A stretch of DNA of 64,000 nt from positions 1,550,001 through 1,614,000 of the forward strand of contig NZ_CP119791.1 of the NCBI RefSeq assembly GCF_029338295.1, read 5' to 3'. The notes under the pieces were generated by a model. The model was not told where the DNA came from. It was given only the letters and a program-made list of their open reading frames with translations, and made no database searches. The translations under genes and the position numbers were made by a program. Below, one piece after another: positions 2,655-20,080 of the stretch (positions within the stretch are counted from its first letter, which is position 1; each line of letters begins with the position of its first letter). Source of the DNA: Haladaptatus sp. QDMS2. GTDB taxonomy: Archaea > Halobacteriota > Halobacteria > Halobacteriales > Halococcaceae.

Positions 2655-2903
2655 ATGTCATTTGACGTGTTTCTGCGTAACGGCTGGCTAGTGCTGTTTC
2701 TGCTCTTAATTGCTGGAGGTCTTTTTGTCGGCGTGTGGAACCAGCAGGATATACGAAACTGCCAACAAATGGCTGAAAATGAGACTGGAGGCGTTGTCGA
2801 GTGTGTGGATTCATTCTCGGACGTAGTGCACTATGGGTCGATGGTGAGTGTCGTCACTGGCGTAATTGGCGTCCTTTGGAAGCTAGTAAACTCAGTAAAA
2901 TAA
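2655..2903 (+). CDS. Small two-helix membrane protein
   Basis: From the ATG at 2655 the product is 82 aa: a hydrophobic helix at about residues 11-28, a polar loop containing two cysteines (NC...EC, roughly 17 residues apart), and a second helix near the C-terminus. The cysteine-bearing loop between two helices suggests an extracytoplasmic disulfide, which is inference. I chose the internal ATG because the 32 residues upstream are basic and unlike haloarchaeal protein, and codon use changes there. Function unknown. Confidence 0.55.
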   Translation: MSFDVFLRNGWLVLFLLLIAGGLFVGVWNQQDIRNCQQMAENETGGVVECVDSFSDVVHYGSMVSVVTGVIGVLWKLVNSVK

Positions 2904-3174
2904 CGGGGACACTCATCCAGACACCACGCAGTTCGCATCCGACACCTAGAACAAACAACGATTGCTTGCCACGACACCCTGTAGGTTCCGTGCGTGCCGT
3001 CTGACAGCAGTCAGGGAGGCAACAGCGGTCATGCTGCATAATATGCACGCTGGTCAGGGGCGAGTCAGCACGGTTGACCCAGTCGAATCGTTCGAGACAG
3101 AGTGTGGATTGACCACTTCGAACAGTCCCTGTTTTCAAAGGAACGTATTTCTCGCTGTAGTTGAAACACAGTGT

Positions 3175-3390
3175 ATGGTTTCCTATCTGTCACTTGTGGT
3201 GGGGATATTTGCGCTGTGGGTTGGCTGGACATTCTATGCAACCCCCCAAACCGCCTTTCGGAGACGTCACTGGCCGTTTCATCCAGAAGGCGATGGACTG
3301 ACTGAAGAAGGTGAGTACTCCTACCGTGTACTCGGGGTGTTCTTTCTTATTACCGGTGCGGGTCTCGTGCTGTGGGGAGTACTCGCCTGA
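3175..3390 (+). CDS. Small two-helix membrane protein, DUF6199-like architecture
   Basis: 71 aa from the ATG at 3175. One helix runs at about residues 3-20, then comes a short basic/aromatic segment (FRRRHWPFHPEG), a charged stretch with GEYSYRVLG, and a second helix to the end. The two-helix layout with an R/H-rich loop resembles small haloarchaeal proteins annotated with DUF6199, but I cannot confirm membership. The 71 upstream codons in the same frame look non-coding, so I take the internal start. No operon partner is visible. Confidence 0.5.
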   Translation: MVSYLSLVVGIFALWVGWTFYATPQTAFRRRHWPFHPEGDGLTEEGEYSYRVLGVFFLITGAGLVLWGVLA

Positions 3391-3765
3391 GTGTCTTCGA
3401 TACAAACACCACATTCAATAGCTACTGATTCAGCGATCAGCGCGGATTCACCTATCGGCTCGTGTATCGTCTGTATCTAACGTTCAGGAAGCCTGTCGAT
3501 CGTATGAATGAGCCAGTCGACAGCGATTCATGGAACTGCTTTCACCAGTATCGTGAGCGGACGAATGCGCCACATGTCCATTTGGGACGAGAGTTCACCG
3601 TCTTTCTCTACCTGAGCAGACCGAATAGGATAGCAGCCAGTCGAGTAATCCATGCCTTGTGGGCAACCAAAACTCTTGGTTCTTGATGAGCTGACGAACA
3701 ATTTTTCAAGGACTACCGCGCTACTTTGGGTTAGAAACTCAAATAATCGGAACGTTTACGCATAC
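3391..3765. other. Intergenic stretch, no feature seen
   Basis: About 375 bp between a rightward and a leftward small gene that converge. I find no gene with haloarchaeal codon use, no tRNA and no strong hairpin. The 74-codon frame at 3462-3686 has an unlikely composition, rich in Arg, His and Asn. Confidence 0.4.
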
Positions 3766-9417: not shown

Positions 9418-9742
9418 TAGGGATTGTTCGCTCGGGTGAAGGCGCAGAAGTGCATGTGCTGATTAGCTGCCCTCTTGCGTGTCCAGGGTTTAGAATCGGG
9501 ATGTGTGTAACCTGCGAGACGGCAGAAGCTAGGAAATTGGCGTCGCCGTCGTCAAGGTGAATAGTCCCTCTGCCTGTCGCACGTCGCTTCTGGCAGAGAT
9601 TGGGTAGCTTTCGGTGAGGCCGTGCTGAATTGAGCGCGCGCATGCAGCAGGGTCGTTACTCCAAGGGAGGGGGACCACAGTCGGGACCTCAGGGAACCGT
9701 CCTTACAAAGGGTCATTTGTCCCAACCACCTACGTAACGTGA
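9418..9742. other. Intergenic gap containing R1
   Basis: 325 bp without a gene. The only structure I see is the array repeat R1 at 9555-9650. The region after R1 should contain the promoter of the gene at 9743, but no strong TATA box stands out. Confidence 0.6.
9555..9650 (+). repeat. Array repeat R1 (~94-bp family)
   Basis: The first, most diverged full-length member. It aligns end to end with R5 except for a two-base insertion in the middle (CGGTGAGG against CTGAGG). Recognisable blocks are GTCGCACG, CTTCTGGCAG, GGGTAG and GCCGTGCTGAATTGAGCGC. It lies between the membrane protein at 8902 and the gene at 9743, in the same orientation as all other copies. Confidence 0.75.
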
Positions 9743-10222
9743 ATGCTTGCTACGCTCTCCGTCGAATCAATCAAATTGGAGGACTCGAAATTCACCAACG
9801 GAGAGCCCGTTTTCACTATCATCGCAGAAGTACCATCAGGACTGGTGATGAGGCTATACGAAGCGGACCACCTTCACATCCACTGGATCCGTCCGAATAT
9901 CACTGAGATATGTGTTTTCGCCCATCCAATCGCGGGAGTCAAGCGACGAAGCACGGTCACGCCCCACATAGAACGCCCAGCCGCTCCGATGTCGGAGTGG
10001 TCTTACGACCTGTACGGAACGATTGCGAAAGTCAACGTATCGGATCCACACAGTGACCGCGAAGGCTTGTATCTACTTGATGTTGGAGAGGGAACGATTC
10101 TCGTCGATTCATCGCTCAGCGAGTTCCTTCCTGCGTCCGAACCTTCTCTGTCAGTTGGAGATGCGCTCTTCATTCCGACCTCCCGTGTCGATATCTACGA
10201 AGACCAACCGCTGAGATGCTAA
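9743..10222 (+). CDS. Hypothetical soluble protein, array cassette 1
   Basis: 159-aa soluble, acidic protein with no membrane segment, signal peptide or recognised motif. Alternating hydrophobic residues suggest a beta-rich fold, with a late segment GLYLLDVGEGTILVDSS. It is the first gene bounded on both sides by array repeats (R1 and R2). Nothing in the sequence gives an activity. Such short soluble orphans would suit an immunity or antitoxin-like role, but I have no direct evidence. Confidence 0.6.
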   Translation: MLATLSVESIKLEDSKFTNGEPVFTIIAEVPSGLVMRLYEADHLHIHWIRPNITEICVFAHPIAGVKRRSTVTPHIERPAAPMSEWSYDLYGTIAKVNVSDPHSDREGLYLLDVGEGTILVDSSLSEFLPASEPSLSVGDALFIPTSRVDIYEDQPLRC

Positions 10223-10305
10223 CCAAAACTCAGTGGGTGAGGTTGGGCTGATTCGTTTGTACGGCGGGTTGAACTCGAAACGCAGTGAATAAAGGGCAGG
10301 CTCTT

Positions 10306-10399
10306 TGCTGAACTCTTCCTCTAAGTTCAGCATGCCGCTTCTGACAGGGACTGGTGAGGTTTCTACGACTGTGCTGAATAGAAAGCGCATATCTTGCAG
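10306..10399 (+). repeat. Array repeat R2 (~94-bp family)
   Basis: Full-length, 94 bp, aligning with R3, R4 and R5 without gaps. It opens with TGCTGAACTC and has CTTCTGACAGGGAC in the middle and TGCTGAATAGAAAGCGC near the end. A seven-base inverted pair, TTCAGCA and TGCTGAA, spans the centre. It lies between a rightward gene (stop 10222) and the 3' end of a leftward gene (10432), only 33 bp from the latter. Confidence 0.9.
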
Positions 10400-10431
10400 A
10401 CGCACCTTCACTACGATTGGTGGCGTCTCTC

Positions 10432-11187
10432 TTATTCAGTCGGCCCAATTGCTAATTCGCGTACAACATCGTCGGAGAACCGATGGTCGTCTGTTCCTGT
10501 TTCAAGACTCTCAACGCCGGATAGATTATAGATGGACCGAAGGAACCGACTCAATCGCTTACGGTTCTCATCTCCAATCTCCGTCTCCTCAAGCCAGATA
10601 GCGGTATTAGACCGAATTTCGAGGTCGTAATAAGACTCAGTACGGTCGGAAAATCCCCGTCGGTGGTGTAGCTCAATCTTGATTGGATCAATGGATGGTG
10701 GTTCATCGACTGGAACCCCGTCCTCGAATGCGCGGTAGCGATCTGAATCGATTGAGATCCAGTGGTCGCCGTCTGCCAGTCGAATATGCGTATCTCCGCG
10801 CAGCAACTTGACCATCCGAATGTAGGGCAGTGTTCCATTTGGGCACTGGAATCCTTCAACGAGGGCCATGAGGTCGCCGTAGGTGATTGGATTGTCTGCC
10901 CGCACCGCGAACCGGTCCTGATGAGAAGGAGACAGGAGGTGTGTTCGCAGGCGCTTTGTTGCAACCGTCTCGAACGTGTCACTGGGATTGACCTCCGGCG
11001 GGAAACATGAGATCGGCATATCCACCTCCATAGGTCTGTACAGTTCCTCCGCTGCGTCAAGCACGGTTCGAAGATATCCGAGCAATTCGTCGGTGACGTC
11101 TGAAGCCGTATCAGCGTCAGAGCGTAACCTGAATCTCCATGAGATTGCCTCTGGTGTAGGGGAGAGGATATCGTGGTTTCTCTTCAT
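10432..11187 (-). CDS. Hypothetical soluble protein, array cassette 2
   Basis: 251 aa, acidic, soluble and without recognised domains. The ATG at 11187 starts MKRNHDILSPTPEA. A central segment (HIRLADGDHWISIDSDRYRA) and a basic C-terminal helix (NRKRLSRFLRSIYNLSG) are the only distinctive features. It is transcribed against the direction of most array genes, yet it is still bounded by repeats R2 and R3 in the common orientation, so the repeats are not tied to gene polarity. Function unknown. Confidence 0.6.
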   Translation of the reverse strand: MKRNHDILSPTPEAISWRFRLRSDADTASDVTDELLGYLRTVLDAAEELYRPMEVDMPISCFPPEVNPSDTFETVATKRLRTHLLSPSHQDRFAVRADNPITYGDLMALVEGFQCPNGTLPYIRMVKLLRGDTHIRLADGDHWISIDSDRYRAFEDGVPVDEPPSIDPIKIELHHRRGFSDRTESYYDLEIRSNTAIWLEETEIGDENRKRLSRFLRSIYNLSGVESLETGTDDHRFSDDVVRELAIGPTE

Positions 11188-11512
11188 CAGAATTTGTCTG
11201 CTTAAGCTTGATGTAGCGATTCACGTCAGCATCAAGCGTTGGTAACTCTACATCCTGTCGATTGATAAAAATATGTGACTATAGTCGAAAGGCGTTGAAT
11301 CTGTAGTTGCTGATATGCTGAACTCACCCTCTGTATCTCGCACGGCACTTCTGACAGGGACAGGGTAGGTTTCCACAACCGTGCTGAACTCAGAGCGCAT
11401 ATCGGTCAGATGGGTCGATGCAACGTTACACCACTCGAATCGTTCGATACAAGGATGTACGTCCAGCTCCTGTTGCGAGAGTTGATTGTATTAGAACACC
11501 AATCTCGTGGGT
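11188..11512. other. Divergent gap containing R3
   Basis: About 325 bp between two divergently transcribed cassette genes. It holds R3 (11316-11409) and A+T-rich patches on both sides that could be the two promoters. No gene seen. Confidence 0.55.
11316..11409 (+). repeat. Array repeat R3 (~94-bp family)
   Basis: 94 bp, the clearest member. TGCTGAACTC occurs twice, at the first base and 66 bp later. GCACGG at unit positions 25-30 can pair with CCGTGC at 64-69, and TCTGAC at 35-40 with GTCAGA at 90-95; the two pairings interleave. By my count it is about 77 percent identical to R4. Confidence 0.9.
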
Positions 11513-12004
11513 ATGAAGATTGAATTTCGCGAATCGGAACATCGCAACCCCATCGAATCGTATGTCTCCTTAAGCGAATGGGAGATGGAGGCTCGAATTC
11601 TGACGGATGAAGGGCCAGTTGAAGCATTTAACGAGGGGTATTTTGATACCTGGATATGGACATTTTTCATCTCGTGTTTGGCTTACCTTCCAGAGATATT
11701 GACGGGGGAGGAAGTCAAGATTCAACCAGACGACAACCCGTGGGATTTGGTGGTTCGCTCCAGCGAGCACAAAATCGAGCTATTCATTGACACGGGTGTA
11801 CGTGGCGGTCGCGGTTCAAATGCCAAGGTTTCACGCTCTGAATTTGCGGAGGGAGTATTCGATGGGACAGAACGATTCCTCACATACATTCAATCCGCTC
11901 GGCCCGATTGGGTAGGCTCCCGTGATTATGAGCTTCTGGATAACGTATTGATGCAGAGAAAAGAATGGTACAACTCGGTGTTCTCGCGGGATGAAATCCC
12001 ATAG
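11513..12004 (+). CDS. Hypothetical soluble protein, array cassette 3
   Basis: 163 aa from the ATG at 11513; a GTG two codons upstream is an alternative. Acidic and tryptophan-containing (YFDTWIWTFF, DDNPWDLVV), with no membrane segment or signal. The pattern of a short beta strand, a helix rich in aromatics and then further strands recalls small immunity-type proteins in bacterial toxin loci, but I cannot place it in a family. It lies between R3 and R4. Confidence 0.6.
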   Translation: MKIEFRESEHRNPIESYVSLSEWEMEARILTDEGPVEAFNEGYFDTWIWTFFISCLAYLPEILTGEEVKIQPDDNPWDLVVRSSEHKIELFIDTGVRGGRGSNAKVSRSEFAEGVFDGTERFLTYIQSARPDWVGSRDYELLDNVLMQRKEWYNSVFSRDEIP

Positions 12005-12054
12005 ACGGAATCAATGGTACGTACACTTGCCTATCGGTTGAGGTACGAATCGCG

Positions 12055-12148
12055 TGCTGCATACACCCTCTCTATTCAACACGCACCTTCTGACAGGGAA
12101 TGGGTGGGTTTCTACGACCGTGCTGAACTCAGGGCGCGTATCATGCAA
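12055..12148 (+). repeat. Array repeat R4 (~94-bp family)
   Basis: 94 bp, gap-free against R3. It carries CTTCTGACAGGGAATGGG and GACCGTGCTGAACTCAGGGC. It starts 51 bp after the stop of one gene and ends about 90 bp before the start of the next, both rightward. Confidence 0.9.
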
Positions 12149-12239
12149 ACCACCGGTGGAGATCTCCGATGTTGTGACCGGACATCCAAGCAATACGAAG
12201 CAACTACCAAGATGATGTACCGCCAACATCAAGAACAGA

Positions 12240-12872
12240 ATGGGTACTGATGTGTACGGCGCAATCGAAGCTGACACCCAACATGGGTGGGTCTATCTTC
12301 AAGCGCTACATCCTCTTATTGGCCGTTCATACAAGACGTTCGGAATGCTGTTCGACGTCCGAAACACTACAGGATTCGAACCAGCGTTCTCCTATCGGGG
12401 TCTCCCGTCCGAAAAAGAACGGTCTCGAGAATTAAATCAGCAGATAGAAGAATTTCTGGATGAAGAATACTCGAATAATGAAAGGCATCACCACAATCTG
12501 GACGATGAATTTGCGGAGTACCGTCCATCATATTTCTTTCTGGATGAGATACTCGCCATCGAGTGGAACGAACAGTCGGACCTGCTCGACGACGAGTACA
12601 GTTTCCTGAATAAGAACAAGGAGCCGATCGGGTACAAGTCCAGACACCCTGGTGGATCTTGGAAAGATATTATCGAAGAATACCAAGCCGAGTTGGACAA
12701 TGGGAACGCCGTTCCCGCACCTGATAGGCAAAGTTACATTCAGCGTCGAAAACTCACCCGGCGCGAGGTGATTTCAGATGACTGGGAATGGTTGATTTTC
12801 GACCTACTCATGGCGTATGGCCGCAAATTCGGATACAATAGCGTTCGAGTTGTTGTCTGGTTCGAGGGATGA
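12240..12872 (+). CDS. MGxD-type conserved hypothetical protein, array cassette 4
   Basis: 210 aa. The start MGTDVYGAIE, then GRSYKTFGMLFDVRN, then RGLPSE and later YRPSYFFLDEIL, match the order of motifs in a widespread but uncharacterised family of phage and bacterial proteins. Those typically read MGxDIH...EVR, RNYxLFxxLAxVRN, RGLPDD, then S-x-L-xL-x-E. I recognise the family from this motif order, not from a search. It implies exchange with viruses or bacteria. A very acidic, His-containing helix (NNERHHHNLDDEFAEYR) lies in the middle. Function is unknown. Bounded by R4 and R5. Confidence 0.7.
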   Translation: MGTDVYGAIEADTQHGWVYLQALHPLIGRSYKTFGMLFDVRNTTGFEPAFSYRGLPSEKERSRELNQQIEEFLDEEYSNNERHHHNLDDEFAEYRPSYFFLDEILAIEWNEQSDLLDDEYSFLNKNKEPIGYKSRHPGGSWKDIIEEYQAELDNGNAVPAPDRQSYIQRRKLTRREVISDDWEWLIFDLLMAYGRKFGYNSVRVVVWFEG

Positions 12873-13174
12873 ATGGTTTCGGGCGCTGTTTGAATCGGGA
12901 ATAGGGACTCCGGACAACACTTTACGAGTCTGGTGATGACTGGTTCTGTGCCTAACGTTCTGCTGAATCTAGCCTCTAAGTCTTGCACGGCGTTTTTGAC
13001 AGGAACGGGGTAGGTTTCTGAGGCCGTGCTGAACTCACGGCGCGGATCGGTCACTGGACTCCCTATCGCAACAGTTGAGATGACACGTACAGAGGAGTAC
13101 GAACCGACGAATCGAAACTGCCGCTGCGTATGGCGCAACGGAGTATTCGCGGGGGTATTGACGACGGTTTCGCC
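12873..13174. other. Convergent gap containing R5
   Basis: About 300 bp between convergent genes. R5 (12961-13054) occupies the middle. No other structure or gene is visible, and no promoter is needed here, which shows that the repeats are not simply promoters. Confidence 0.55.
12961..13054 (+). repeat. Array repeat R5 (~94-bp family)
   Basis: 94 bp, gap-free against R3. GCACGGC (unit positions 25-31) pairs perfectly with GCCGTGC (63-69). The conserved end block is GCCGTGCTGAACTCACGGCGC. It sits between the 3' ends of two converging genes. Confidence 0.9.
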
Positions 13175-13945
13175 TCACCCTCCAAGTAGGCGGCGGATGC
13201 TGCTCATAAATCCGGAGTCAGTTCCATCTTCTGGAACCTCTTCGGGCGAATCGTACGCTGTTACCTCGCCAGTGTCTGTATCGACGACGGTTACGCGGTC
13301 AAGCCCACGCTGTTCTGTGCTTGGGGCGGTTGAGGCATCCCTCGTTCCGTGTTCGGGAGGAGTGGCTGCCGGGTCGTTTCGAAGAAATTCGAGGCCAGAG
13401 TCAGTTGGTTCGATTCCCGTAGCCTCATGGAGTTCTTCGACGAACGAATTGAGCTCGGATACGAAATCGAATGCAGCTGGGTGAAATGCGATTTGGTTGG
13501 TGGGAGACTGGGCGGAGTACGACCGGAACCGGAACTCGTGTTTCATCGCGAGTGCGTACATAACGTCCTGCCCGCCGTAGCCGTCGATACCCCCGAACTG
13601 GACTGCCGCGACTTCATCGTCCGCACCCGCGTTTGTATCGATGATGAGCGTCACGTCAGTCGCGGTTTCCGTTCGCCCATCGAACGTAGCGATAGCTGCT
13701 CGCTTCCACAGGTGCGTCGTCTCGTGGACGATATTCTCTGCCTTCCCCATGACCGTCACATACAGGTAACGGTCAATCCACGCATAGTCGGCACCTCTTT
13801 CACCGCTGTCTGTTTCGACCTTCGCGAACGTGGATTCCTCTTCCGTTGAGAATTCAACCGGGTGGTTCTCTTTAAACCACTCCATCAGTGTCTCCCGAGC
13901 ACTCACGTCATCACACTCGAAATTGTAAACTGTCCAACTGACCAT
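13175..13945 (-). CDS. Hypothetical protein with HETTH motif, array cassette 5
   Basis: 256 aa from the ATG at 13945. An HETTH sequence at residues 74-78 fits the HExxH zinc-protease pattern, but I see no convincing third ligand, so this may be chance. A glycine-rich stretch (FGGIDGYGGQD) follows. The C-terminal third is Thr/Pro/Asp-rich and ends in a short basic amphipathic helix (SSIRRLLGG). There is no signal peptide. Transcribed opposite to most of the array and bounded by R5 and R6. Confidence 0.6.
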   Translation of the reverse strand: MVSWTVYNFECDDVSARETLMEWFKENHPVEFSTEEESTFAKVETDSGERGADYAWIDRYLYVTVMGKAENIVHETTHLWKRAAIATFDGRTETATDVTLIIDTNAGADDEVAAVQFGGIDGYGGQDVMYALAMKHEFRFRSYSAQSPTNQIAFHPAAFDFVSELNSFVEELHEATGIEPTDSGLEFLRNDPAATPPEHGTRDASTAPSTEQRGLDRVTVVDTDTGEVTAYDSPEEVPEDGTDSGFMSSIRRLLGG

Positions 13946-14309
13946 CAAGAGTCTTACGTCGTTATCTGATAAGTATGTAGTGTTGACACAAGGTGTCAGG
14001 GAATTTCCGACACCGTTCTCACTTCAGAAGTGGCCATGTCTGGGATATCCACCAAAGAATGAATTGTATACTGAACGCCTGCTGAATACACCCTCTGAGT
14101 CAGTCACGTCAGTTCTGATTCAACCTAAATGATTCAGCCCGACTTTGCCGAACTCACAGCGCAAATCGGTCAGAAGGTTAGATCTGAATCGCGACATTCA
14201 GTACCAACAATTGCCGCATCAATCACTCGGCGGAAAGGCGCTAATTGGATAAATCAAAACGAGTCAGTGCCAGCGATAGTTTATTGTTGTATTAATTATA
14301 CTACACACT
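13946..14309. other. Divergent gap containing R6
   Basis: About 360 bp between divergent genes. It contains R6 (14080-14173) and, before 14310, a very A+T-rich patch (14279-14305) that should be the promoter of the rightward membrane gene. Confidence 0.55.
14080..14173 (+). repeat. Array repeat R6 (subtype II)
   Basis: 94 bp, with the same ends as R2-R5 (TGCTGAATACACCCTCT and GAACTCACAGCGC) but a different middle (CACGTCAGTTCTGATTCAAC, then ATGATTCAGCC) shared only with R7. TTCTGA near the centre pairs with TCAGAA just past the end. I call R6 and R7 subtype II. Confidence 0.85.
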
Positions 14310-14648
14310 GTGAATGAGCCACGAGAATCGTCGTCGGACAAACAAGTGAGCAGCAGGTGGTGGATACCTATCGGCATGATTGTCGTGATTCTCCCGATAA
14401 TGTCGCTGGCTGCACTCGTATTGCCACCTGACGCGTTCACGTTACTCCTAACTGGTCCGTTACTCATTGTCGGGACCATCCTGAATCTCCTCTCACCGGT
14501 ATTCGTCTATTTCGATAGTCGCTACCTCACGACCGCTTCGGCGTGGGAGCCATCATCGAAATACTATCTGATGTTTCTCCCGCTAATCGGGTACGTACTC
14601 GCCATTGTGTACATTTACAATCGACACAAGCATCTAGGGATCCCGTAG
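14310..14648 (+). CDS. Three-helix membrane protein, array cassette 6
   Basis: 112 aa starting at a GTG (14310). Two close hydrophobic segments (about 18-40 and 43-65) are followed by a loop YFDSRYLTTASAWEPS and a third helix ending in a basic YIYNRHKHLGIP tail. That last pattern is common in haloarchaeal small membrane proteins ending in a KRHxHxGxP-like motif. A frame-internal ATG before the first helix is absent, which supports the GTG. Bounded by R6 and R7. Confidence 0.65.
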   Translation: MNEPRESSSDKQVSSRWWIPIGMIVVILPIMSLAALVLPPDAFTLLLTGPLLIVGTILNLLSPVFVYFDSRYLTTASAWEPSSKYYLMFLPLIGYVLAIVYIYNRHKHLGIP

Positions 14649-14702
14649 GTCTCCGACGTGCACCTAGACTGGAAGATTACTCCGGAACAAACAGATTTGG
14701 TT

Positions 14703-14797
14703 TGCTGCATACACTCTCTTAGTTAGTCACGTCAGTCCTGATTCACCCCCGAATGATTCGGCGCGACCGTGCTGAACTCACAGCGCGAGTGTATCAT
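14703..14797 (+). repeat. Array repeat R7 (subtype II)
   Basis: 95 bp, one base longer than R6 in the middle block. It shares CACGTCAGTCCTGATTCA and ATGATTCGGC with R6 and the common end ACCGTGCTGAACTCACAGCGC with R2-R5. It ends about 40 bp before the start of the lipoprotein gene. Confidence 0.85.
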
Positions 14798-14839
14798 TCT
14801 TCATAGAAAGTACTTATTGCTCATTGACTATATTGCCGT

Positions 14840-15304
14840 ATGAAGCGCCGTGCCCTCCTCGCACTGCTCGGGGCGACTGCGACTGCTGGTTGTTCGACTG
14901 CCTCGGGACTGTTCGGCGGCGAGCAGTACGTCGGACTCGGTGGCCTCGAAGTCGGCAACTTTGACGACGAACCACACACCATCACGGTGCAGGTCGACGC
15001 CGATGGAGAAACAGTGCTCGACCGAACGCTCGAAACCGACGCCCACGCGAACGGCATCATCGACGGTGGTGAACTCCCGTGTGTTTGGCGCGACACGCTG
15101 GGACCGTACGTCGTCCGGGCACGCCATGAGTCGTCTGACGGATGGGTCGAGACGACCCTTGACGACGGTAGCGACCAGTCTGAACTCGTCAAAGCCTCCG
15201 TCCGCGTCGGGTTTCTCGATCAGAGCGACGAAATCGAGGTGCTCTTGCTGAAGGGCGATGTCAAGGACTGTCGGGCTGTCACGCCGACCACCACCTCTGG
15301 CTGA
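14840..15304 (+). CDS. Putative lipoprotein, array cassette 7
   Basis: 154 aa. MKRRALLALLGATATAGC gives a signal with paired arginines and a lipobox (TAGC, Cys 18). The mature domain has the strand pattern of a small Ig-like beta-sandwich (HTITVQVDADGETVLDRTL, YVVRARHES, WVETTLDDG), as in many haloarchaeal lipoproteins, and one further cysteine near the end (DCRAV). The G+C content is backbone-like. Bounded by R7 and the partial repeat R8, whose homology begins 18 bp after this stop codon. Confidence 0.7.
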   Translation: MKRRALLALLGATATAGCSTASGLFGGEQYVGLGGLEVGNFDDEPHTITVQVDADGETVLDRTLETDAHANGIIDGGELPCVWRDTLGPYVVRARHESSDGWVETTLDDGSDQSELVKASVRVGFLDQSDEIEVLLLKGDVKDCRAVTPTTTSG

Positions 15305-15321
15305 GCCGAGATGAGAGGTGG

Positions 15322-15365
15322 TGATATACCCACCCTCTACGTTCAGCACGCCACTTCTGACAGCG
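15322..15365 (+). repeat. Array repeat R8 (5' half only)
   Basis: About 44 bp match the first half of R2-R5 (ACCCTCTAC, TTCAGCACGCCACTTCTGACAG). The second half, with the otherwise invariant GTGCTGAACTC block, is absent. Homology stops abruptly within CTTCTGACAG, marking the right boundary of the array just before the toxin-antitoxin pair. Confidence 0.75.
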
Positions 15366-15429
15366 TCTGGCCAAATCAGGCACAATATGCGAGGGAAGTG
15401 TTTTACTACTGCGCTCACAATGTACACAC

Positions 15430-15750
15430 ATGAGTTCTGGATCGGAGAAAAAACGCGTGCAGTTCCGAGCGCCACGAGGGCTGGTCGATCGCGCCGACAC
15501 CCTCGCCGCGGTGTTTGAGACCGACCGGACGGACATCCTCATCACGGCCCTTCGCGACTACCTTCGAGACGCATCACACTCCGACGAAGTAAAACAGGAG
15601 ATTGCCGAGGCCTACTACGACGACGACATCACCTTCGCGGAGTTGAAAGCCCTCGTCGGCCACGAAGAGGCGGCGAACTTCCGCCTCCTCAAACAACAAC
15701 TGAGCGAGGCGTTCGTCGACGAGGTGGCAGAGGAGCTGGCTGACGGCTAG
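15430..15750 (+). CDS. Ribbon-helix-helix antitoxin
   Basis: 106 aa. The N-terminal half (KRVQFRAPRGLVDRADTLAAV, then RTDILITALRDYLRD) has the strand-helix-helix pattern of RHH/CopG-type DNA-binding antitoxins, and the C-terminal half is an acidic toxin-wrapping region. Its stop codon is immediately followed by the ATG of the PIN-domain gene, so the two are translated together, as in VapBC-like pairs. The antitoxin would neutralise the PIN RNase and repress the operon; this is known of the family and not shown here. It lies just to the right of the partial repeat R8. Confidence 0.82.
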   Translation: MSSGSEKKRVQFRAPRGLVDRADTLAAVFETDRTDILITALRDYLRDASHSDEVKQEIAEAYYDDDITFAELKALVGHEEAANFRLLKQQLSEAFVDEVAEELADG

Positions 15751-16275
15751 ATGGTGCGCATCGTCGCCGATACGTCCGCCCTTGTTAGTCTCGGGACCGT
15801 CGCAGATACCACACCGAACCCGCTTGACCTCCTTCTCGACGCACACGACATCCTCCTCCCCGAGCAGGTCATCGACGAACTCACCGAGACAGCATCCTAC
15901 GACGACCCGTCGGGAGAGGCAGCACAGGCCGTCCTCGACCGCCAGGCCGCCTTCGACGTCCGCAGTGTTGACTTGGACGAGACGTTTCCGCTCGATGACG
16001 GCGAGAACGCGGCCGTTACGCTCGCGAACGAGGTAGAGGCGGTCCAGTTGCTCTGTGACGAGTTCAATCGATTGGCGCTCGTGCATGCATCGCTGGTGGA
16101 TACACGCCTGGTGACGACGCCGGTCGTTCTTACGGCGCTCGTGTGGAACGACGTGCTCTCTGCGGATGCTGCTGAGGAGTTCTTGGAGACGATGAGTGAG
16201 GCCCGGAGCTGGGCAGCGAACACCTACGTCGCACGGGCGAAAGCCACCCTCCAACTGCAACGAGATGATGGGTGA
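15751..16275 (+). CDS. PIN-domain toxin
   Basis: 174 aa. The acidic quartet expected of a PIN nuclease is visible: D7 (VADTSAL), E43 (VIDEL), E85 (LDDGENAAV) and D103 (LLCDEFNRL). PIN toxins cleave RNA in the cytoplasm until bound by the partner antitoxin. The ATG directly follows the antitoxin stop with no gap, which is strong operon evidence. It is somewhat longer than minimal VapC toxins (~130 aa), with a C-terminal helical extension. Its place between the cassette array and the replication gene suits a stabilising module of a mobile region. Confidence 0.82.
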   Translation: MVRIVADTSALVSLGTVADTTPNPLDLLLDAHDILLPEQVIDELTETASYDDPSGEAAQAVLDRQAAFDVRSVDLDETFPLDDGENAAVTLANEVEAVQLLCDEFNRLALVHASLVDTRLVTTPVVLTALVWNDVLSADAAEEFLETMSEARSWAANTYVARAKATLQLQRDDG

Positions 16276-16327: not shown

Positions 16328-18864
16328 CTACTCCACAGTCCCGCTGAGAAATCGCTTCGTGCGGCCTAAGAGTGACGAACTCTCTGACTCGGCCTCGTCG
16401 CCGGCGCTGGCCTGCGGAGATTCAGCGCCACTATGAGTCGATGCATCCGCGTCAGTTCGAGCGGTTTGGGTCGTTTCCACCTGTTCGAGCTGAGTTTCGA
16501 GGGCGTCGATTCTCTCGGTCTTGTCCGCGAGTGTTGCTTCGAGTGTGGCGATTCGTTCTCGCAACATCCGAATCTTCTCCACGAGGTATACTCGGCTGCG
16601 CTCAGCACCGGCACCGACATCACCGCCGGTACCCATTGAGCCACTCTCTGGTTCAGACTCCGTTGCCGATGCTGGTTCGTAGAACTCCGACGTCGTCGCA
16701 ACGGCTCGCTCAATCGTCTTCTCACCGTACGTCGACCCATCGGCGTAATGCACAGCGTCCCACTTCTCGCGCATCAACCCTGACTGCTGGAACAGCTGTT
16801 CCATCCGCCCAGCCTCGCCTCCAGTCCAAAACGCCAGCAAACAACACAACGCCATATCAGCCTCCGAGTGGCTCGCATACCCAGACGTATTCCCGTTCCA
16901 GAGGCGGGCGAACTTTGCCCCGTTCGAGGCGTTCCGTGCTTTTCGGAGGAGTTCCTGGTCGTTGAGATCGACATCGACCCTGGGCCCAGACTCTCCGCCA
17001 GCGGCACCAGAGCAATCTGCCTCAATCGCCGAATCGGATTTGGACTCCTCAACGTACTCGCGATGAATCGCCACAAGTGCATCCTGCCGACGGGCAACGC
17101 GCATGGGAGTGACGTCGACGTGGTCGCCCGTGACGGTGAAGAACCGAGCCGTGTCGTCCTCTTTCTCCGATGGGTCGTGGGTGCCGTGGGCGACTGGGCA
17201 GGCTTCTTTGCGTCCGCGGAGCACGCGGTAGGTCACACCACTCGCTTGCCGGCTGTGTTCGACTGCACTTTTTCGCGAGTCGCGCGTGGGGCTGAGGTGG
17301 ATGACGGGCTGGTTGCCGGTGGCGTCTGCGTGATTCAGCCAGGGTTCAGTCGAGACGGCGTAGCTCTTTCCGAGACCCGTTGGCGCGTCGATGACGACTT
17401 CTTCCTGGTGACGAACGTCGTCAAGGAGGCGATTTCGGAGGCGGTCGCGTGCTTCGCCTGTTGAGGGCCACTCGATATCGCGAGAGGCTGCCGCGCGTTC
17501 GCGCTGGTCGCCGTCGAGAGCGTCGAGCTTTCCGAGTGGGAGGGCACTCACTTCTTCATTCGCGTTGGATTCGTACTTCGGGATGTGTGCGCCGCGATCG
17601 CGGAGCGCGTCGACGGCCTTCCAGAAGGATTCGCCACTGGGATAGTCGGTGACGGCAGTGATGAGGTGTTCTTCGAGCGCGACGACTTGGAGTGCATCCA
17701 AGCCTTGCATGCCTTTGCGGTAGACCCAACCATCACCAACCTCAGCAAGGGGAGTTCCGCTCTTCGATTGCGCCCAGCTTGGATTGAGGTCTTTGCTGCC
17801 ATCGCATCGTTCGCGGGTGACGGTCGACCGAAGATGGGTGTCTCCGGGGCCGGTGTGTTGGATGGCATCGAAGACGTCCTGAATGTCGGAGGTGGTCTCG
17901 ATGTAGGCGAGCGCTTCCTTGGACGTGGACGGTTCTGTGGTGAATTGGTCTGGGCGGCCAGCGGGTGGTGCTGCGCGTGTGGCCTCGAGAGCGCCGGGGT
18001 TGGTCGCGAGGAGTTCTTCGACGATATCGTGGATGTCTCTGGTGCTCGTTGCGGTGTCAGGGATGTGGTTTCCGGTGATGGTGAAGTAGCGGCGGCCGGG
18101 ATAGATTTCGAGTTCCGCGTCCGGCCATTCGGGTGTGGAGAGGTCGATGGTGAGGGCGTTCACGCCATCTGGGAGGCAGAAGCCGCCGAGGGCGTGTGCG
18201 CCGGTGCCTGAGGGTGACCACTCACAGAAGGTGCCGGCGAGTTTCTCGAGAAGATCTGCTGCGACAGGGGCGACGTCTCCCGTGTCTGGATTGCGGATAT
18301 CGTCAAAGTCGAGAAGCCCGACGTGAGGTTCTTCGGGAACATCTTCAGCTGGGTCAATGTGGGCGTATTTGTCGTCGCCTTCCCAGTCGTTGCGGTCGGG
18401 GCTGGTGAGATAGTAGGCGAGTCCAAGGTCGTCGTCGTGGTCGACCCAGTTTGCTGCGTCGTCAAAATCGAACCATGCGTCGGGTTTTTGGCGCCGACGA
18501 AGGCGTAGCCACTCCCGTGGCTTGAGTAGCCCCACACAGGATTGCGTGGGACTTTCCTGTCGTCGCTGTACTGCCAGAGCAGCCAGCGGGAACCGTTTTC
18601 GACGAGGTCAATTGGGTAGGTATCAGTTTCGGCCCCGCTGAGGTCGATATCCGATGGTTTGCTCTTGTCGGGCTTCTGGACGCTCGTTTCTGGTTGGGTG
18701 GTGGGTTCTGTCTGGTTGCTGGCGGGGGTGTCGTCGGTGTGTTGTGTGGTGGTTTCGAGTTGGTGGTGGTGGGTTTCGCAGAGGCTGGCGGCGTGGTCTG
18801 TATCGAGAGCGGGGTTTGTGCACGCGGGAAGTGTGCACTTCTGTTTGGAGGGGAGTCCGCTCAT
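16328..18864 (-). pseudogene. PrimPol-helicase replication protein, frameshifted
   Basis: Reading leftward from the ATG at 18864, an N-terminal zinc-binding piece (C-x4-C...C-x2-H) and a primase-type start (SRWLLWQYSDDRKVPRNP) run to about 18490. The frame then breaks at a five-base T run (18485-18489; A run on the coding strand). The continuation is in the -1 frame: KPDAWFDFDDA, GLLDFDDIRNP, CEWSPSGTGAHALGG, ELEIYPGRRYFTITGNHI (an archaeo-eukaryotic primase-polymerase core like that of phage NrS-1), a Walker A DAPTGLGKS, and a C-terminal LLAFWTGG...YGEKTIE domain plus coiled coil. Adding one A would restore a protein of about 840 aa. Either a pseudogene, a sequencing error or -1 frameshifting is possible. 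The gene would start replication of a plasmid-like integrated element. Confidence 0.8.
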
Positions 18865-18962
18865 GCCCGGTCACCTCGGTTGTGGGCGTCGTTAAATGAA
18901 TGTGAGAGGAGGAGAGACCCGTTGGTAGGGGGTTTATTACTTGGCTTGTCAGGAAATTGGTA

Positions 18963-18992
18963 GAAGCCAAAGGAGGGATTTTCCCCCCGACC
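18963..18992 (-). repeat. tRNA-Thr 3'-end fragment (att site copy)
   Basis: On the minus strand this matches the last ~30 bases of the tRNA-Thr gene at 20814-20886. Nineteen bases (18963-18981) are identical to 20812-20830, and GGTCGGGGG is also kept, with a small change in the T-loop. A partial tRNA 3' end on the far side of an integrase is the classic footprint of archaeal tRNA-targeted integration. Confidence 0.85.
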
Positions 18993-19010
18993 ACCGAAAC
19001 CGCACGACAG

Positions 19011-19020
19011 CACGCGCGTG
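19011..19020. promoter_or_regulatory. Palindrome upstream of integrase
   Basis: CACGCGCGTG is a perfect ten-base palindrome 56 bp before the integrase start. It could be an operator or excisionase/integrase arm site. There is no other support. Confidence 0.3.
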
Positions 19021-19075
19021 CGGCTCCGGTTACAGTGTATTCGCAATGCCAGCAGGCACGGAGCGTGGCGATACC

Positions 19076-20080
19076 ATGTCATTGAAGCCAACTCATCCCA
19101 AGGACGCTATGAATCGCTGGATAAACGACAGAGAATCAGAACTTTCCCCGAAAAGTATCTACAATTACTCCGGGCAACTCAACCAATTCACTGACTGGCT
19201 ACTCGAACACGACATTATCAACATGAATGATGTGACGAGCGAGACTCTCCAGAGTTATAAGGAACATCGAAGCGAGTCACTGAAACAAATCAGTTTGAAA
19301 AACGACATGCGAACAATTCGTGCGTGGATACGCTTCTGTGAACGAATACTTGCTGTTCCTAAGGGCCTCCATGAGTACGTTCCTATTCCCACAGTCTCAA
19401 AGGAGGACTCTATCAACGGAACCTACGTTACGAAAGGTGAATCGGACGCTCTGCTCACCTACCTCAAAAAGTACAAGTACGGGACTCTGTGGCACGTAAT
19501 GGGCCTAATTCTATGGAAAACTGGAATGCGACGTAGTGGCCTGCATAGTCTCGACCTTGGTGATGTGGATACCGAGCGAAGCGTGCTAAAGCTCCGACAC
19601 CGGCCTACAACGGGAACCCATCTTAAGAAAGCCTTTGACAGCGAACGTGACGTGATAATCACAGACGAAACAATGCAGGTCATCCAAGACTACATCCACA
19701 GTCACCGCATTGACACACCCGATGAACACGGTAGAGAACCTCTACTGACGAGTCGCCATGGTCGCTACTCTATCAGTTCCATCTCCGGCACAGTCTATGC
19801 GATGACTCGACCATGTTGGTACACAAACACCTGCCCGTTCGATGAAGACATCACAACGTGTGAAGCGACAAAGCGCGACCATGCGAGTAAATGCCCGGGA
19901 AGCCATAGTCCACACGCCTTCCGCCGAGGTCACGCGACCATCGCTGGCAACGTTGGACAGGACAAAGATGTGACCGGGGAACGACTCGACATGAGCCGAG
20001 ATATTCTCGATAAGCACTACGACCTCGGGAGCGCCAGTGATAAAGCCGAACGTCGGCGTCAGCACTTGAAAGACTTCTGA
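19076..20080 (+). CDS. Tyrosine recombinase (integrase)
   Basis: 334 aa from the ATG at 19076; codons upstream in frame include the att sequence and are unlikely to be translated. An N-terminal SAM-like core-binding domain (residues ~10-105) precedes the catalytic domain with R152 (TGMRRSGL), H280-x-x-R283 (HAFRRGH) and Y315 (DKHYDLGS). Four cysteines (247, 253, 262, 273) may hold a zinc, a feature of haloarchaeal integrases. It carries out site-specific strand exchange at att sites, here presumably in tRNA-Thr. It lies between two tRNA-Thr 3' fragments. Whether it also acts on the array repeats R1-R8 to the left is an open question. Confidence 0.92.
   Translation: MSLKPTHPKDAMNRWINDRESELSPKSIYNYSGQLNQFTDWLLEHDIINMNDVTSETLQSYKEHRSESLKQISLKNDMRTIRAWIRFCERILAVPKGLHEYVPIPTVSKEDSINGTYVTKGESDALLTYLKKYKYGTLWHVMGLILWKTGMRRSGLHSLDLGDVDTERSVLKLRHRPTTGTHLKKAFDSERDVIITDETMQVIQDYIHSHRIDTPDEHGREPLLTSRHGRYSISSISGTVYAMTRPCWYTNTCPFDEDITTCEATKRDHASKCPGSHSPHAFRRGHATIAGNVGQDKDVTGERLDMSRDILDKHYDLGSASDKAERRRQHLKDF

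Follow-up and report, generated by a model that had tools for sequence, protein, structure and literature searches.

A cassette array in Haladaptatus

The window, by which we mean the whole 64,000-nucleotide stretch of Haladaptatus sp. QDMS2 DNA analysed here, carries an array of seven full repeat units and one terminal half unit at 9555-15383, all on the + strand. Full units hold a left (L) and a right (R) core joined by a linker, as in R3, which was assigned as a full repeat by full-length HMM and CM matches. Consecutive units are separated by one ORF each (112-257 aa), and none of these ORFs has a confident Pfam match.

9555..9649, +: R1, full repeat with degenerate left end; R core 9623-9649
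9743..10222, +: cassette ORF, 159 aa; no Pfam match
10306..10398, +: R2, full repeat; L core 10306-10332, R core 10372-10398
10432..11187, -: cassette ORF, 251 aa; no Pfam match
11316..11408, +: R3, full repeat; L core 11316-11342, linker 11343-11381, R core 11382-11408
11507..12004, +: cassette ORF, 165 aa; no Pfam match
12055..12147, +: R4, full repeat
12240..12872, +: cassette ORF, 210 aa; no Pfam match
12961..13053, +: R5, full repeat
13175..13948, -: cassette ORF, 257 aa; partial DNA-level homologues (71-72%) in other genera
14080..14172, +: R6, full repeat
14310..14648, +: cassette ORF, 112 aa; weak DUF7534 match
14703..14796, +: R7, full repeat; R core 14770-14796
14840..15304, +: cassette ORF, 154 aa; lipoprotein-like N-terminus; DNA-level homologues (77-84%) in other genera
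15322..15383, +: R8, terminal left half only (nhmmer match, model positions 1-58); L core 15322-15348

R8 forms the 3' end of the array and is without the GGATTTCAACAGAGCC end found in other arrays. Just 3' of it, at 15430-16275, lie adjacent small ORFs of toxin-antitoxin-like character, the first with a weak ribbon-helix-helix match. These are followed by a protein with an NrS-1-like polymerase HBD domain (16328-18535, -), which adjoins P0002, a tyrosine recombinase with SAM and Phage_integrase domains (18941-20080, +). The segment 16328-20080, next to the array, probably represents a plasmid or provirus that has integrated.

Repeat arrays across Halobacteria

The genome containing the window (3.88 Mb) yielded 51 repeat matches, and copies occurred in 29 of the 41 genomes of the order that were searched; named matches span about fifteen genera, all of them Halobacteria, on chromosomes as well as plasmids. 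A genome-wide search with a long exact repeat pattern gave no match, a shorter exact pattern recovered 11 loci, again all in Halobacteria, and the repeat was absent from the phage collection searched. Among open-access papers, we found none on this repeat.

Units separate cassettes of one or two genes in same-orientation arrays, with a median unit-to-unit distance of 914 bp. Neighbouring copies share their orientation in 118 cases and oppose each other in 20 (P = 4e-18), whereas the longest ORF of each cassette is oriented at random (50 versus 47). Array 5' ends have a right half-site in common, and 104 of 115 classified transitions agree with the order right half, full, full, left half, with 11 inconsistent. 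One genome carries more than 15 units in one orientation on contig C23 (L098-L101 of G010, about 29-87 kb), together with a recombinase gene and a decayed recombinase copy. Contig C2 of the genome containing the window has a 19-kb stretch twice at 99.9% identity (L030 811-19900 and L032 1-19100), each copy carrying a one-cassette array.

Opposed palindromic cores in the 93-bp unit

The full unit consists of two 27-bp imperfect palindromes, the cores, which face each other 66 bp apart. L cores read outer arm, NCCTCT, inner arm, and R cores read inner arm, AGRGCG, outer arm, the reversed R spacer being CGCYCT; the arms are variants of TGCTGAATACA, TGCAAGATACA or TGACCGACTCA. Counted from the outer arm inwards, 104 of 140 L cores carry C at position 13, and 88 of 93 R cores carry G there. 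Correlations between arm types, examined for the possibility that the linker is an insertion into a pre-existing palindrome, were weak everywhere and uninformative.

This layout explains most of the symmetry that the original prediction had noted in R3. The direct repeat TGCTGAACTC is present as written at unit positions 1 and 67, that is, 66 bp apart, because the cores are opposed palindromes and the outer L arm therefore resembles the inner R arm. Likewise, GCACGG (25-30) and CCGTGC (64-69) pair because they are the two inner arms. The second pair, TCTGAC (35-40) with GTCAGA (90-95), is also there but appears fortuitous. Although the variants quoted for R2, R5 and R6 all occur in the sequence, the R2 variant, put forward as a possible compensatory change, reflects an L-core inner arm that is simply of type TTCAGCA; TGCTGAA-type inner arms are found in the R cores of 77 of 93 copies in any case.

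Single-strand folding and covariation

From the interleaved pairs a pseudoknot-like fold had been proposed, with single-strand recognition as at integron attC sites. Under such an explanation, one strand of the repeat would fold as a nested hairpin or pseudoknot and be recombined single-stranded by an integron-type integrase. As with attC, each site between gene cassettes is indeed built from two simple sites in inverted orientation, and R3 alone can form a stem from CTCTG/CAGAG plus GCACGG/CCGTGC. However, single-stranded R3 DNA folds no better than its shuffles (z = 0.05 for the + strand and -0.59 for the - strand), and z ranged from about -1.5 to +0.2 for six units folded on both strands.

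RNAalifold gave no consensus pairs on 19 copies and none on 144 copies. In the 144-copy alignment, which was built with a sequence-only model, covariation of the interleaved pairs was 0.042 versus 0.045 (sd 0.004) in shuffles, with 368 of 500 shuffles scoring at least as high, and that of the nested attC-like pairing was 0.051 versus 0.059, with 486 of 500 as high. Lacking both excess folding and covariation, the proposed single-strand structure is not supported in either its interleaved or its nested form. The only pairing above its own shuffles, and weakly so, is the dyad within each 27-bp core (65.1% paired versus 64.0% in shuffles; score reached by 0 of 500 shuffles), as expected for recombinase sites that are double-stranded. 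Random gene orientation within cassettes also counts against attC-like recombination, which, together with the integrase comparison given below, leaves us regarding it as extremely unlikely.

Cassette exchange between arrays

Near-identical cassettes recur in other arrays, in other genomes or in another order. A 1638-bp block at 98.7% identity, set between unrelated flanks, is common to arrays of two species of the genus (L034/L103), with identity running from the centre of an R core to the CCTCT of an L core. The cassette common to L036 and L146 (96.8%) has the same breakpoints, and the array ends have diverged on both sides. L028 and L145 have a linker plus cassette in common (96.3%), from L centre to L centre, and plasmids of two Haloarcula marina strains carry cassettes X (97.7%) and Y (98.6%) in different order, broken at CCTCT and AGCGC. 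The 11 resolved breakpoints, read by eye from the exchange alignments including the two H. marina plasmids, fall in one common interval per core, at unit positions 15-18 in L and 79-84 in R; they derive from few clean events, about five units.

Breaks so tightly confined to points within the cores indicate site-specific recombination at both cores, which we infer from its products as seen in sequence, and such confinement is not expected from homologous recombination. The latter would treat the units as ordinary dispersed repeats between which cassettes are swapped. Haloarchaea readily recombine, identity among the numerous copies reaches about 90% across the 93 bp, and some of the few exchange events could have arisen in this way. 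Yet the breakpoints occupy an interval of 3-5 bp per core rather than lying throughout the repeat, the linkers flanking exchanged cassettes differ on both sides, and a specific recombinase gene occurs between cores, so we consider this explanation unlikely. The prediction of integron-like recombination sites is supported insofar as cassettes move and break at fixed points of the repeat, but the folded-strand mechanism attached to it is not.

A small tyrosine recombinase between the cores

A search for tyrosine recombinases identified P0003, a 241-aa protein encoded within the large G010 array. In other haloarchaea, genes of this type (235-241 aa) lie between an L and an R core, replacing the middle of the linker, and they also adjoin cores in Halorussus and H. 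marina. We fetched 30 P0003-homologue loci by protein similarity alone and then scanned them for cores: 23 of the 30 had a core match, compared with none of 40 loci of other PF00589 integrases (Fisher P = 1e-12). The matches usually abut the gene, with only a few bases between the stop codon and the end of the left-half match and with the right-half match just before the start codon; most close homologues have an L core on one side of the gene and an R core on the other. At L214, L216, L218, L219 and L223 the recombinase gene is reversed relative to L and R; the distant homologues at L226 and L228-L230 (50-66% identical) have no detectable cores.

The P0003 family belongs to the tyrosine recombinase superfamily by PF00589 membership, catalytic set and fold. 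Arg72, Lys131, Arg191, Trp214 and Tyr223 are invariant and His188 is present in all but one of 21 sequences, a CxCGYC motif is conserved, and the predicted structure (pLDDT 76) is matched by those of XerA, lambda Int, IntI and Cre, with Z scores of 13-16. Pfam finds no N-terminal SAM-like domain in P0003, and against the integron-integrase model TIGR02249 the protein scores 20.9 bits where the cut-off is 265, which argues further against attC-like recombination by an integron-type enzyme. Among viruses, the relatives of P0003 are integrases of haloviruses and include Int1 of phiCh1 and phiH; a scan of viral contigs for P0003 found no relative.

At E <= 1e-15, we found no P0003 homologue in the genome containing the window or in repeat-rich relatives including G003 and G016. 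With no close copy there, the array in the window is either idle or served in trans. Two other candidates for the enzyme were rejected: P0001, a tyrosine recombinase beside a repeat copy at C1:1546.5k, and P0002 show no correlation with copy number, and no core was found at loci of P0001/P0002-type and other PF00589 proteins in relatives.

Array ends

Arrays in several genera are enclosed by a pair of inverted GGCTCTGTTGAAATCC ends, whose spacing from the outermost cores is fixed. Exact 8-bp target duplications flank L116 (GTTCAGGT) and L119 (ACGTCGGT), the duplication at L034 matches in 7 of 8 bases, and other GGCTCTGTTGAAATCC-ended arrays have none. Ends of this kind with 8-bp duplications suggest that arrays may in addition be transposed as a whole. 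A stronger proposal would make the entire array a non-autonomous transposon with GGCTCTGTTGAAATCC ends, its internal repeats being insertion remnants without a role. The inverted ends at fixed core distance in several genera, with exact duplications at two loci and a near-exact one at a third, speak for it. Against it, the L036/L146 cassette moved without the ends, near-perfect identity stopping at the cores; the breakpoints lie at cores, not ends, in five units; and many arrays lack GGCTCTGTTGAAATCC ends, including that of the window, where none occurs at the 3' end. An IS6 origin of the ends was also rejected, since the genome containing the window has no IS6-type PF13610 transposase and the PF13610 loci in relatives are without these ends. 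We therefore judge it very unlikely that the array is a transposon in which the repeats play no part.

The 3' ends of the L106, L107, L148, L153, L161 and L171 arrays carry other conserved ends, such as GGAAAGTACGAAGACTTCAGCGAATCCCTATAG, and these differing conserved 3' ends suggest further platform types.

Proposed cassette system and comparison with known systems

We propose, with a probability of roughly 0.78, that a small tyrosine recombinase uses the 93-bp unit as a paired, double-stranded site and that the unit itself is a gutted element. The recombinase would bind the 11-bp arms and exchange strands in the central bases. When two directly oriented cores recombine (L with L, or R with R), a gene would be excised, inserted or exchanged together with one linker, and recombination between the inverted L and R cores, which typically differ by one spacer base, would flip a cassette, fitting the random gene orientation. 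Since the recombinase gene lies between L and R cores, the 93-bp unit looks like the element minus its gene; an ordinary unit would then be a copy of the recombinase element with an internal deletion, much like a MITE.

The resulting cassette system works like an integron, yet its recombinase scores far below the integron integrases and its sites give no sign of an attC-like fold. Integrons, including those of archaea (PMC9668308), likewise have arrays of mostly single-gene cassettes and paired, mutually inverted tyrosine-recombinase sites, and they exchange cassettes with breakpoints inside the site, as the site-specific exchanges found here do. In contrast, the haloarchaeal recombinase is not IntI and is without a recognizable N-terminal SAM-like domain, its sites give no folded-strand signal, genes occur in both orientations, and the recombinase gene lies inside the spacer between two cores, within the array rather than at its head. 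The archaeal-integron paper does not mention haloarchaea (PMC9668308), and the word 'cassette' is absent from a review of archaeal tyrosine recombinases.

Three further systems invite comparison. In shufflons, the recombinase Rci carries out multi-site DNA inversion, and the inverted segments supply one gene with alternative 3' ends. As would be the case in the haloarchaeal arrays, a single locus there contains several inverted sites for the same tyrosine recombinase, with segments in both orientations; the haloarchaeal segments, however, are whole unrelated genes exchanged between genomes. Int1 of phiCh1 and phiH is encoded inside invertible tail-fibre segments described as flanked by inverted repeats (PMC6210493), and thus shares with P0003 homology (42-44% identity) and the placement of a small tyrosine recombinase gene between inverted sites. 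Int1, however, flips the tail-fibre genes of one virus, whereas the haloarchaeal site pair serves as a spacer, dozens of times over; the Int1 invertible region of phiCh1 has no core match. SMR-A of Haloquadratum walsbyi is about 110 bp long, with inverted terminal repeats and no target duplication, and is inserted in palindromes with no known mobilizer (PMC3119063). Compared by its published description, it resembles the haloarchaeal repeat in size, inverted ends, lack of target duplication and palindrome insertion, but it is not reported as a cassette spacer (PMC3119063).

On balance, we lean towards a broader reading in which haloarchaea possess a second, independently evolved system of cassette capture and shuffling that parallels integrons, using a small Int1-type recombinase and double-stranded palindromic cores, and spreading its own gutted element as the spacer. 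If so, the arrays of mostly unnamed genes across Halobacteria would be mobile cassettes of an integron-like system, through which genes on haloarchaeal plasmids and islands could turn over and which would perhaps explain how haloarchaeal small mobile repeats move; the candidate enzyme and its defined sites would be open to direct testing.

Elsewhere in the window, an element of about 500 bp (2894-3393) is 93% identical to a second locus of the genome (L027 1374-1875) and contains a distant core-like match at 2975-3040; it may be a further gutted element of this type.
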